IMG/VR virus record: IMGVR_UViG_3300028840_005054
Coordinates: 1 to 30,771 of that record
Length of the DNA: 30,771 nt
Reading direction: 5' to 3' (one strand)
DNA from: a virus
Part shown: in pieces, positions 3,055 to 14,484 of the stretch
Numbering within the stretch: position 1 is the stretch's first letter
How the letters are laid out: each line of letters opens with the position of its first letter
Position numbers and translations under genes: made by a program
Notes under the pieces: model-generated
The model's input: the letters and a program-made list of their open reading frames with translations, nothing else
What the model was told of the DNA's origin: nothing
Database searches by the model: none

Positions 3055-3082
3055 TTGACACGCACAAATAAAGGTATATAAT
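3055..3082 (+). promoter_or_regulatory. Sigma70-type promoter for the sigma-like gene
   Basis: TTGACA (3055-3060) and TATAAT (3077-3082), both perfect consensus, are separated by 16 bases and preceded by an A/T-rich stretch that could act as an UP element. Transcription would start near 3090, giving an untranslated leader of about 60 bases. This predicts strong early expression by the host polymerase. Confidence 0.85.
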
Positions 3083-3148
3083 AAGAGTCAAAGGATATGG
3101 GATTGTTTAGTAAGTCGGCGTAAACATTAACAAACGGAGGGTTACAAG

Positions 3149-4054
3149 ATGGAAAAGGAAAAGGTAAAGGTTTATCAGGATTTGATGGAGTTCTCAAGTC
3201 GTCAAGAGGAGTCAAAGGTAACCGATCAAGACCTCATTCAATCGGCCATAGTTCGAGCCTTGGAAACAGGGAAAAAGTTTAATGATGATAACCATTTCAA
3301 AGCCTATCTAAAATCAGCTATTCGCTCCAAGCGTATCGACACGGAACAACAGAAAGAAAATCTTGTTTCTCTATCTGATACCGACATCGGAAATGAGATT
3401 GAGACTTTTGCAGTCTCAATCCCCAAAGATTACTACCTTTATAAGTGGATCATAACGCAAAAGACTTCCAAAGGAAGGTATCTTTTTTCATCCAGAGAAC
3501 GAAAGGTTTTCGCCAAACGTTACCTTGGAGGCAAAACACAAGAGGAAATATCTGAGGAGATGGGCATTGATAGAACTGTCATTACGAAAAACTGTCAAGC
3601 TATCCAAAGGAAGTTGTTATCCCTTCCTATAAAAGATATGGCAGGTGCATGGTATTATGGGAGCGGGGTTTATTCAAGCGGGGACATTTGGGCGGAGATT
3701 GAAGTCAAACCATCACGCATCGGATTTTTAAAAAGGTATCGTAGAGCTGGAAAACAGACTGACTTGGAAAAGTTTAGAAAAGACAGCGCTCGCTGTTTCA
3801 ACCAGCATTCGGCCATAGTCGGCGTATCTGCTACACCTATTTATAATGATACTCCCATACCACAAGGGAAACCGGAGCGTGATCCGGATCATATCCCAGA
3901 CTATTACCCGGTTAAAGGCAAGTCAAGGGACTTGACTCCCATTGTCAAGGAATCTGAATCCATCAAACGAAACAGTTTAGCCAGTCACTTCAAGCATAAT
4001 GTGGATAACCATACTGACTGCCAGCCTTGGCTGTCACTGAGCAACTACTCTTAA
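3149..4054 (+). CDS. Sigma-factor-like transcription regulator
   Basis: A 301-residue protein. Residues 45-75 (NHFKAYLKSAIRSKRID) resemble sigma70 region 2, and 113-156 (SSRERKVFAKRYLGGKTQEEI then MGIDRTVITKNCQAIQRKL) match the region 4 helix-turn-helix. The roughly 145 residues after this are not recognised, are rich in Pro, Asp and Ser, and look disordered. Family members direct RNA polymerase to specific promoters, so this is a plausible phage middle or late switch. GGAGGG lies 9 bases before the ATG. The gene has its own consensus promoter and a strong terminator, making it a monocistronic unit. A plain HTH regulator rather than a working sigma factor is possible. Confidence 0.65.
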   Translation: MEKEKVKVYQDLMEFSSRQEESKVTDQDLIQSAIVRALETGKKFNDDNHFKAYLKSAIRSKRIDTEQQKENLVSLSDTDIGNEIETFAVSIPKDYYLYKWIITQKTSKGRYLFSSRERKVFAKRYLGGKTQEEISEEMGIDRTVITKNCQAIQRKLLSLPIKDMAGAWYYGSGVYSSGDIWAEIEVKPSRIGFLKRYRRAGKQTDLEKFRKDSARCFNQHSAIVGVSATPIYNDTPIPQGKPERDPDHIPDYYPVKGKSRDLTPIVKESESIKRNSLASHFKHNVDNHTDCQPWLSLSNYS

Positions 4055-4400: not shown

Positions 4401-4423
4401 GACGGCCACTATCATGCAATCAT

Positions 4424-4471
4424 AATGGGTATATGACCATACCCACTAATGGGTATATCGACATACCCACT
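4424..4471. repeat. Two tandem 24-bp repeats, each a TGGGTAT/ATACCCA dyad
   Basis: Units 4424-4447 and 4448-4471 read AATGGGTATAT-NNNN-ATACCCACT and differ only in the central four bases. Each contains perfect 7-bp arms (TGGGTAT and ATACCCA) with a 6-bp spacer. Head-to-tail dyads with conserved arms and variable centres are typical of dimeric repressor or initiator sites. They lie 230 bases upstream of the next promoter. Confidence 0.7.
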
Positions 4472-6271: not shown

Positions 6272-6385
6272 TAAAGCCAAATGGGATACGAGCGAGGGCA
6301 GAGTGACCGTTTCCCCAGGGCTTAAGGCCACAGGCAAAATGTGCGAAAAATGGTCCTTAGTATATATGTATATAGAAAATGAAAT

Positions 6386-6497
6386 ATAGGTAAAGAAATT
6401 TTACCTATTTCGACGATTGCCCGGAAATATAGGTAAAAAAACTTTACCTATTGAGAAATATAGGTAAAAAAACTTTACGTAAAGAAATTTTACCTAT
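6386..6497. repeat. Array of four 23-bp dyads (ATAGGTAAA-N5-TTTACCTAT)
   Basis: Perfect copies at 6386-6408 (spacer GAAAT) and 6429-6451 (spacer AAAAC). A fused pair follows at 6460-6497, where the right arm of one and left arm of the next share TTTACGTAAA. All have 9-bp arms and 5-bp spacers. No credible gene occupies 6272-6710. Regular dyads in an A/T-rich gap are typical of operators for a dimeric repressor, or initiator sites at a replication origin. Confidence 0.8.
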
Positions 6498-6540
6498 ATT
6501 GCGGATCGTGAGTTAAATCAATAAGTTATGTCATGTAAAA

Positions 6541-7594: not shown

Positions 7595-7764
7595 AACTTC
7601 CCAAACCTGTATGGACATTACTGTGGAGCCTCTTCAGCCTGTGCGTTGTCGTTATTTTCGTTTTATGGTTCATCCCAAAGGTTATTGTATTTCGATTTTA
7701 CAGGAAAAAGGCACGACGTAAACAGTTTGAAAGATCGATTCGCAAACTGGTATCGCTTAACTGA
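7588..7764 (+). CDS. Single-pass membrane protein with a basic tail
   Basis: 58 residues starting MLKLPKPVWTLLWSL, with a membrane helix at about 9-35 and a strongly basic cytoplasmic tail (RKKARRKQ...). The start overlaps the previous gene's stop by seven bases. Function unknown; the topology recalls regulators of membrane complexes or holin partners. Confidence 0.5.
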   Translation: MLKLPKPVWTLLWSLFSLCVVVIFVLWFIPKVIVFRFYRKKARRKQFERSIRKLVSLN

Positions 7765-9982: not shown

Positions 9983-10537
9983 ATGGCTGTTGACCAGTCA
10001 AAGGTCGGTCGAGATCTGAAAACGCAAGTCGGGACCGTTATGGGTATGCAGGCGCGGTACATCGCCCATGTCCAGGAATGCAAAGGTGAAAAGTGCCCCC
10101 TTTATGATCAGTGTACTTACAAGAAAAAAATGGGGCCCTGCAAGGTTATTCACAACTTCTTATCCTCTCTCTATCGTGATTGGGTGGATCCAGATAACGG
10201 CATAGGCGATATCATTGTCCAGTCTCAACTGGACAGACTTGGCCTTCTGGTCATTCCTCTGTATCATATGTATATCCGAATGCTTTTGGAAACTTTTTCA
10301 GTTGACAGCACAGACTATGAGGACAGCAAGGGAAGGATTCACACGCGACCGCAATTTATAGAAATGCCCAAACTGATTCGAGAGATCAGGGCCGAGCTTA
10401 AGGATATTGGCTTGGACAAGCTCTGGAACCAGAAATTCGGAAGGAAAAAGCCACTGCCTGCAGGAAAAAGCATGGATGATCTCATGCGAGACGGGCAGGG
10501 CTATGAGGCGGCCCAGGGCTGGGATGAAAATTCCTAA
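9983..10537 (+). CDS. Cys-cluster protein in the small-terminase position
   Basis: 184 residues starting MAVDQSKVGRDLKTQV. Four Cys in CKGEKCPLYDQC and GPC (about 33-53) suggest a metal or iron-sulphur site. The remainder is helical (LDRLGLLVIPLYHMYIRMLL...IREIRAELKDIGLDKLW). It lies one short RNA-like element upstream of the large terminase, where a small terminase subunit is usual, but no typical helix-turn-helix of that family is obvious. GAGGGGG lies upstream. Small terminase is a positional inference. Confidence 0.55.
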   Translation: MAVDQSKVGRDLKTQVGTVMGMQARYIAHVQECKGEKCPLYDQCTYKKKMGPCKVIHNFLSSLYRDWVDPDNGIGDIIVQSQLDRLGLLVIPLYHMYIRMLLETFSVDSTDYEDSKGRIHTRPQFIEMPKLIREIRAELKDIGLDKLWNQKFGRKKPLPAGKSMDDLMRDGQGYEAAQGWDENS

Positions 10538-10541
10538 TGCT

Positions 10542-10739
10542 TTTGTTGTGCGATAGAAGGAGGATGCATTCAGGCGAGTAACTAAGGTGAAAGCCCCTCC
10601 GGTTGGACCTCAATGAGAGGTACGCTTCATGGAAATAGCATAGATCCATGCAGGGCAAGGCTACCCAATAATAGCCGCTTGTAGAAGCCGCTTAGGGAGC
10701 GGGAGTGGTGTGGGGGAAAACCACGTATCGCACAACAAA
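10542..10739 (+). ncRNA. Structured RNA (HEARO/omega-RNA-like?) upstream of terL
   Basis: A 198-base gene-free element closed by a perfect 14-bp terminal stem (10542-10555 with 10726-10739). Internal hairpins: GGAGG/CCTCC (10559-10600), ACCTC/GAGGT (10607-10621), CATGGA/TCCATG (10628-10650), GGCTA/TAGCC (10659-10676), GCTT/AAGC (10677-10688) and CCGCT/AGCGG (10688-10702). The core AACTAAGGTGAAAGCCCC is reminiscent, from memory, of HEARO (IscB omega-RNA) and of group II intron domain I. No IscB, reverse transcriptase or intron domain V is present. A terminal-inverted-repeat element is the main alternative. Confidence 0.6.
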
Positions 10740-10757
10740 TCAATTTGAAGGGAATGT

Positions 10758-12611
10758 ATGAATAGCAACGACTACATCTACAAGCATAAGCCGGAATATA
10801 CAAACGGTGCCGAAGGGTTTATCTTATGGGCTGAAGATAACGCCTATATTGAGGTCGTCCCCTTTGATTCCACGGCAAAGAAGTGGGTGTCACTTAGGGA
10901 CCTGCCGGACGACCTTCACCCTGAAACAGGCAAGTCGTACAAGCAAATGTGGGAGGCCCAGAAAGAAATTATCCGTGAAGCCCTTAGAATGGAAAAAGGC
11001 CAATTTGTTTACCGCCTGTTAGTTTTTTGCTGGCCTCGCGGAGAGGGTAAGTCGCTCCTGGTATGCCTGATAAAGCTTTGGAGGTTTTGCGTTTTTCAGA
11101 GGCAGAAGATACTTTGTGGCGCCAACAGTAAAGACCAGGTTACTTTTGTCCACTATGATATCATGAAAGATATCATAAAAAACTCGCCAAAGCTCATAAA
11201 TCTGATAGGGCTGAAGAATGTGAAGAAACAGGCTATTACCCTAACAGACAGATACGATAGCATCCAGTCGGAAATCAAGCCTATATCATCCCACACCGGA
11301 CTTCTCTCCAATATCAATGCCTACACCTTCAGCGATCTGTTTAAAATGGTCAAGTCAACGTTTTTTACAGAGCTGGATGGATCGACGCGGTGGATCCCGA
11401 ATGCCATGGGAGCGATCGATTCAACCGTGTCGCCAAAGAATCATATCCTCCACAACCTATACGAGTCGTATATTAAAGGCGAAGACCCAACTCTTTTCTT
11501 TTCGTACCGATTTAGCAAAGAAGGGGACCCGGCAGATTATTGGAACCCAAATGCGACAGTTGCCCAACTCAATGGGTTTAGAGTCAAATTTCCGTTCGGT
11601 GATTTTGAGAAGTTCTTTCTTAATCTATGGGAGTCCGCCGAAGAAAAGTTCTTTAAACCCGAGACAATCGAGGCGATGCATTATCTGGGGGTTGACAGGG
11701 CCATCAACGTTCACAATACCCTTATTGAGCTAATCAATGAAAAGACGAAACTGGAAGAGACGAAAGCTGAATTCGCAGAGCGGGGTATCGAGGCTAATGT
11801 CGAAAACCAGATTCAGGTGATCAAGAAGAAGCTTTGGCATATCGAGGACATTTTTCGGTTGCGAACGGATCAGAACAGGCCAAGGATTCCGGAGCCTACT
11901 GACGTTGAAACGTTGAGCAATATTTATGATACCGATTGGGCGATCATGGGCTCCATAGACCGTGCTGATCCAACGGAAGGAAAAAGAACGTCTGCAAGGA
12001 CTATCGTATCGGCCATTATGAAAGGGCTGATTGGAAGCAGGAGAAATCCGCTGATAGCAGCAGAGGGAGAAATCCCGGCGTACCTGTATATTCTTCTGTA
12101 TCTTGATGATGTGGAAGATCACAGCTTAGAGGGGATTAAAAATAGATTTCAAGTGATCCATGACACTTTTGGTGGGTTGGATATCCTTGGGGGAGAACGA
12201 TGGGGCGTTTGGGATCTCGCGCCATGGTGCGAAGAACGAGGAATAAAGCTCCAAATATGGAGCCCAAATTATTCTCAGCAGAAGGCGATGTTTTCGGAGC
12301 TTTTCAACGCTGCGAAATTTGGGCAATTCAAGGCCCCACCATTGGCAGTACCAGGTTACAAGAAGGATGATATCCTCATAGAAGAAGCGACGGAATTCAT
12401 TCATCAGCCCCCAGCGCCTGGAAAGAAGGCGGGATGGTTCGGAAGTCCGGAGAAGAACATAAAGGGTGGCGTACAGGACGATTCCATTTTTACAATAGGC
12501 GGCGGAATGTACGCCGGCCGCGAGTTAACGGTGGTCGATTTCCGAGAGAGAAAGGGTAAAATGGATTTCGGAACATTTTTCCCGGCAGAGGGGTTATTGG
12601 GGAAATATTGA
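10758..12611 (+). CDS. terL: Terminase large subunit
   Basis: 617 residues. Walker A WPRGEGKS lies at 92-99 in the packaging ATPase domain. The C-terminal RNase H-like nuclease is indicated by GSIDRAD (D401), WGVWDLAP (D486) and the closing GVQDDSIF (D574-D575). A coiled insert at about 325-360 (NEKTKLEETKAEFAE...) separates them. It pumps DNA into the prohead through the portal and cuts concatemers. GAAGGGAATGT precedes the ATG. It sits between the structured RNA and a strong terminator and is the first firmly identified gene of the head module. The length is normal for the family. Confidence 0.9.
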   Translation: MNSNDYIYKHKPEYTNGAEGFILWAEDNAYIEVVPFDSTAKKWVSLRDLPDDLHPETGKSYKQMWEAQKEIIREALRMEKGQFVYRLLVFCWPRGEGKSLLVCLIKLWRFCVFQRQKILCGANSKDQVTFVHYDIMKDIIKNSPKLINLIGLKNVKKQAITLTDRYDSIQSEIKPISSHTGLLSNINAYTFSDLFKMVKSTFFTELDGSTRWIPNAMGAIDSTVSPKNHILHNLYESYIKGEDPTLFFSYRFSKEGDPADYWNPNATVAQLNGFRVKFPFGDFEKFFLNLWESAEEKFFKPETIEAMHYLGVDRAINVHNTLIELINEKTKLEETKAEFAERGIEANVENQIQVIKKKLWHIEDIFRLRTDQNRPRIPEPTDVETLSNIYDTDWAIMGSIDRADPTEGKRTSARTIVSAIMKGLIGSRRNPLIAAEGEIPAYLYILLYLDDVEDHSLEGIKNRFQVIHDTFGGLDILGGERWGVWDLAPWCEERGIKLQIWSPNYSQQKAMFSELFNAAKFGQFKAPPLAVPGYKKDDILIEEATEFIHQPPAPGKKAGWFGSPEKNIKGGVQDDSIFTIGGGMYAGRELTVVDFRERKGKMDFGTFFPAEGLLGKY

Positions 12612-12645
12612 CCTGTATTGTGCATCTCAGGAACAAAATGACATC

Positions 12646-12671
12646 AAAGTGGCCTTTTAGGTCACTTTTTT
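12646..12671 (+). terminator. Intrinsic terminator after terL
   Basis: AAAGTGGCC (12646-12654) pairs with GGTCACTTT (12660-12668), with one G-U and a five-base loop, followed by six T. It splits terL from the portal operon. Confidence 0.85.
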
Positions 12672-12714: not shown

Positions 12715-12775
12715 CTCATTGAGGCACTTTTGTACCGTTGATACAGATGTGTTTCACAAGAGGATGTCCCATGAA

Positions 12776-14359: not shown

Positions 14360-14428
14360 CGCCAGGGTGATCCTCCCAACAACCGGACCCTGTTTCGACG
14401 GTAGGCCAGCCTGAAAAAACGGGGAGTG

Positions 14429-14484
14429 AGCGAAAGGGCAGAATAGTGGGCCGCCCACACCTACTACTCTGCCCTTCGCTTTTC
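14429..14484 (+). terminator. Branched hairpin with T-run before the protease gene
   Basis: AGCGAAAGGGCAGA (14429-14442) pairs with TCTGCCCTTCGCT (14468-14480), with one bulge, followed by TTTT. Between the arms GTGGG/CCCAC (14446-14457) forms a second hairpin. This Y-shaped structure could be a terminator, a partial terminator tuning the portal-to-capsid ratio, or a processing site. Confidence 0.6.

Follow-up and report, generated by a model that had tools for sequence, protein, structure and literature searches.

A hairpin-rich, 198-bp non-coding element with perfect terminal inverted repeats lies before the large terminase gene of a phage and is tentatively read as a MITE-like insertion

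The window analyzed here is the whole 30,771-nucleotide stretch of IMG/VR virus record IMGVR_UViG_3300028840_005054, and a 73,680-bp sister contig of the same phage differs from it by 2 bases over 26,554. Its large terminase gene (terL; 10758 to 12611, + strand, 617 aa) was recognized with PHROG terL models (best E 9e-9) and follows a 184-aa ORF on the same strand (9983 to 10537). An earlier note, made from the sequence alone, had described this junction as lying between a head gene and terL. The second half of that description stands, whereas the upstream ORF had no family match in profile searches and, because it is a conserved neighbor of terL, "small-terminase candidate" by position is the most that can be said of it. 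Both genes are full length, and the 220-bp gap from the stop codon of the upstream ORF (10535 to 10537) to the terL ATG at 10758 also supplies terL with its own ribosome-binding site, a Shine-Dalgarno-like GAAGGGA on the + strand (10747 to 10753). Downstream of terL we observed a terminator-like hairpin with a T-run (12643 to 12670, + strand), which is also present in the predicted fold, and then, up to position 12715, TTGACA and TATA-like boxes ahead of the portal gene; terL and the portal gene may be separate transcription units. No promoter-like site was found over the gap element itself.

That element, which spans positions 10542 to 10739 and is assigned to neither strand, is non-coding, rich in hairpins and closed by a perfect 14-bp stem (P1). 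Its arms, TTTGTTGTGCGATA (10542 to 10555) and TATCGCACAACAAA (10726 to 10739), form a terminal inverted repeat that matches at 14 of 14 bp; on the + strand the left arm has a mean pairing probability of 0.97, and the right arm was recovered by both the repeat search and the fold. No other inverted repeat spanning up to 500 bp is as long in the window or the 73.7-kb sister contig, and 400 dinucleotide shuffles of the 220-bp gap produced none longer than 11 bp. Perfect 14-bp ends that exactly bound a non-coding stretch exceed chance. Within the gap, no plus-strand ORF of more than 23 aa begins, and antisense ORFs over the element reach 58 aa at most. The element is not A+T-rich (G+C 51% versus 48.7% for the window), and it begins with TTT and ends with AAA, such that a terminal TA is absent.

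Inside the closing stem we counted five non-overlapping perfect stems (at least 5 bp, loops up to 12 nt) where 0.93 were expected, and 0 of 1000 shuffles reached five; a composite GGAGG...CCTCC arm is present besides these. The repeat, the hairpins and the ORF scan thus agree with the earlier note that a non-coding, multi-hairpin element fills the gap before terL. Its predicted fold is a closed multibranch loop. Reading along the + strand, the composite hairpin comes first (10559 to 10600; GGAGG/CCTCC, GC/GC and TTCA/TGAA around a 15-nt purine-rich loop, GGCGAGTAACTAAGG; pair probability 0.90-1.0), followed by ACCTC-AATGA-GAGGT (10607 to 10621; probability 0.96), CATGGA...TCCATG (10628 to 10650; 0.98) and GGCTA-CCCAATAA-TAGCC (10659 to 10676; 0.70). 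Two adjacent small hairpins, GCTT/AAGC and CCGCTT/GAGCGG, then share C10688 (10677 to 10702; about 0.5 and 0.81, respectively), and a last hairpin, GTGGT...ACCAC (10705 to 10724), has a competing register of the same arm with a probability of 0.55.

For the whole element, the folding-energy z-score was -2.4 (+ strand) and -4.1 (- strand), whereas removing the closing stem left a core with an unremarkable energy (z of -0.63 and -1.85, respectively). Much of the excess stability therefore comes from the terminal repeat, a feature that is expected of a DNA element too, and several other stretches of the window fold as unusually or more so. The bases left unpaired on the + strand are 75% purine (A33 G27 T12 C8), a weak hint from the modeled fold that, if there is an RNA, its strand is the + strand, co-directional with terL.

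Most decisive was the comparison with relatives, which revealed the junction in its uninterrupted form. A TerL search of IMG/VR returned 38 loci besides the sister contig, whose best segments are 41-62% identical, and in many of these a homologue of the upstream ORF precedes terL. Searching with the capsid gene added a closer relative, L082, in which the upstream ORF, TerL and portal proteins are 55%, 68% and 75% identical to ours; there the upstream ORF occupies 3070 to 3618 and the ATG aligned with our TerL start lies at 3608, so that the genes overlap by about 11 nt with no insert. Across eight further relatives with an upstream homologue (TerL 52-62% identical), the two genes abut or overlap, within about 30 nt, in L003 to L006, L010 and L012, and unrelated sequence follows the upstream homologue in L007 and L008. 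The element was found at the terL junction of none of these nine relatives, from which we take it that the element is a gain of this phage lineage. Both proteins keep their ends, the upstream protein at its C-terminus (...AQGWDENS* in the window, ...AQGERDGV* in L082) and TerL at its N-terminus (MNSNDYIYK and MESDNTYIYK), so the element and a new ribosome-binding site were added without coding loss. Other inserts occur at this junction as well. The L007 sequence includes a small ORF, unrelated to the element, inserted between the upstream gene and terL, and in L026 the gap upstream of terL (790 to 1020) holds tandem G-rich repeats (GGGCAAGGTCCGGCA...), which suggests that the junction is tolerant of varied inserts.

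A model of the element alone (R1) matched the window and the sister contig, each at the element, and nothing in the TerL relatives, the capsid relatives, the whole relative contigs or 80 listed contigs that carry the end 14-mer; neither the window nor the 73.7-kb contig holds a second copy. Phages, plasmids (one 23-base match) and E. coli genomes showed no meaningful DNA similarity, scanning viral contigs and genomes for exact cores turned up chance matches only, mostly inside coding frames, and paired ends spaced at 155-185 bp occurred in no other viral contig. As for a transposon with the same ends, the 80 listed contigs yielded 2 near-pairs (partner within 4 kb) as compared to 0-4 for shuffled ends, and direct repeats that might represent a target-site duplication were limited to 5-mers of chance size lying off the boundary. 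No tRNA or tmRNA was detected, and a literature search on RNAs at terminase genes found nothing relevant.

We also evaluated the element against described structured RNAs, since the earlier note had likened its core to HEARO/omega-RNA or to domain I of group II introns. Neither resemblance was supported. Rfam 15 gave nothing over the window at gathering thresholds, the covariance search that the note had proposed against Rfam (HEARO, group II and phage RNAs) found nothing up to E=10 in 501 and 208 bases around the element, and the HEARO model (RF02033) searched alone was likewise negative; these results lead us to reject HEARO/omega-RNA, group II and all remaining Rfam families. The note's further claim that no partner protein is encoded nearby was borne out, with no reverse transcriptase (PF00078), RRXRR (IscB/IsrB) or IS110 transposase domain in either the window or the 73.7-kb contig, and with sub-threshold matches to the TnpB zinc-ribbon model that we regard as noise. 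What the element shares with the IscB omega-RNA is a size of about 200 nt and a multi-hairpin form, but neither the covariance match nor the RRXRR protein. With group II domain I it shares a GTGCG string in the 5' stem arm and a GGTGAAAG-like loop, a visual resemblance only, whereas the Rfam group II models (D1D4 families and D5-D6) are unmatched, domain V and the intron-encoded reverse transcriptase are missing, and the surrounding genes need no splicing. Self-splicing was also considered, as excision of about 233 nt would bring back an ancestral-looking terL start at 10522; it was dropped because the possible borders obey the rules of neither group I nor group II introns and because the terL ATG is preceded by an in-frame TGA. 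The terminal complementary arms, which enclose the hairpins, resemble the a1/a2 arms of retron RNAs (msr-msd), but the element has no long msd hairpin, and the known phage sequence has no reverse transcriptase.

The element looks like a small passive mobile element more than a known guide RNA or intron, with a function that is putative, and the reading we tentatively favor, at a probability of roughly 40%, is a structured, MITE-like insertion whose transcription would be shared with terL. The earlier note had named a MITE as an alternative, and the part of it that holds is that the insertion is specific to this lineage and has a terminal inverted repeat at its borders. Of the usual marks of a MITE, the element has terminal inverted repeats (14/14 bp), a non-coding length of 198 bp and an empty site in relatives; it shows no detectable target-site duplication and lacks the A+T-richness and terminal TA that are common, though not universal, among such elements. 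As the searches returned no target duplication, no further copy and no transposon end that matches, we describe the element as built like a MITE-like repeat without assigning it to that class. Such bacterial repeats are shorter than 200 bp, encode no protein, mostly carry terminal inverted repeats and form stem-loop transcripts that affect adjacent mRNAs (PMC2229807), and their old target duplications can decay (PMC10969869). The likeness to Correia/NEMIS, RUP, ERIC and RPE extends beyond size, non-coding content, terminal repeats and a stem-loop transcript to lineage-specific, intergenic insertion beside stop and start codons. In contrast to these families, the element is single-copy in the sequence available, has no detectable target duplication and no sequence match in the searches made, lacks a terminal TA and A+T-richness, and sits at a phage late gene junction. 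The dense short hairpins also speak against a MITE-like insertion, as an IS that shrank by deletion would not usually carry them.

The main rival is a cis-acting RNA under selection, that is, a structured leader of terL in the mRNA that frees terL from coupling to the upstream gene and controls how it is translated or how stable the mRNA is, perhaps after cleavage of the closing stem. We consider such a leader possible, though clearly less probable than a MITE-like insertion. The element fills the space from the stop codon to the terL ribosome-binding site with GAAGGGA just outside the stem, the terminator-like hairpin after terL would fit a transcription unit of this kind, and the purine-rich unpaired bases are a weak sign in the same direction. 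However, the element is missing from every relative although the junction is otherwise conserved, the folding energy of its core is ordinary, and the stronger z-score falls on the minus strand. An RNA acting in trans (a guide, scaffold, decoy or retron-like molecule, processed from the transcript or transcribed at the site) would account for the closed multi-hairpin form, the purine-rich loops, the retron-like terminal arms and the lack of an ORF; we judge it unlikely given that Rfam, the partner domains and the promoter scan, as described above, all came back empty. Slightly less likely again is that the element represents an undescribed class of phage structured RNA of ~200 nt that is released or transcribed at the terminase junction and acts in trans with a partner encoded elsewhere.

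Two readings instead take the element as DNA, or as a relic. Decay of an IS, an intron or a moron gene, with no present function and with the inverted repeat incidental, would be consistent with the lack of a homologue anywhere searched, with antisense ORFs of no more than 58 aa and with the unrelated small inserts at the junctions of L007 (small ORF) and L026 (G-rich repeats), but decaying DNA would not be expected to preserve a 14-bp repeat and short stems in perfect form, and we regard this origin as improbable, about on a par with an RNA acting in trans. The least probable of the explanations is a site for packaging initiation (cos/pac) or other protein binding in which the inverted repeat acts as DNA. 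Its position between packaging genes, its perfect inverted repeat and its strand-symmetric hairpins would suit such a site; against this, the gap is missing from relatives whose TerL is 52-68% identical, and packaging in this group thus needs no such site there.

Under a MITE-like insertion, the element would have entered as DNA that a transposase mobilized in trans, probably from the host, and it would then be transcribed together with terL. In the mRNA, the 14-bp stem would be expected to close, so that the insert is looped out and the terL ribosome-binding site stays accessible. The chief effect would be a loss of the gene overlap and of translational coupling, such that terL initiates by itself. 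Perhaps RNase III would cleave the stem, just as it reportedly cuts at the terminal inverted repeats of Correia elements (PMC10969869). If the element is indeed a mobile structured element, it shows a phage tolerating an insertion at a point where the packaging genes overlap in its nearest relative, with both coding ends intact and with an insert that closes on itself in the mRNA; should it instead be an RNA under selection, the DNA-packaging motor would gain a newly recognized point of control. Neither outcome changes what is known of guide RNAs or introns.

Evaluating the other non-coding parts of the window, we found two stretches that look like better RNA candidates than the 198-base element, because they have homologues in relatives, which the element lacks. 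The stretch at 2320 to 2800 is non-coding, folds strongly (z of -3.8 on the + strand and -4.7 on the - strand) and has no Rfam match, and its blocks CATGGGCGGATTGCCAG, GCGTAAGCCCTTAA and CCAGGGCGCA are conserved in order in a relative phage (IMGVR_UViG_3300037424_000925), within positions 601 to 1000 of its locus L208, where they are non-coding as well; it is a candidate for a large phage RNA, undescribed so far, of about 400-500 nt on either strand. The other is a long hairpin between the portal and head protease genes (14427 to 14482) that recurs at 95 to 175 of L083 and at 7680 to 7760 of L082, where the stem sequence differs yet pairs and the apex TGGGC.GCCCAC is constant, which suggests a conserved cis-acting RNA before the protease gene. 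Two further stretches are marked by short repeats. At 6382 to 6501, a non-coding stretch carries clustered, near-identical copies of AATATAGGTAAAA in direct and inverted orientation, which are iteron-like and a possible replication or partition site. Several short related palindromic copies around GGGTATAT / ATACCCA lie at 4418 to 4470 and may represent operators or ParB sites; ParB itself is encoded at 140 to 1057 on the minus strand.
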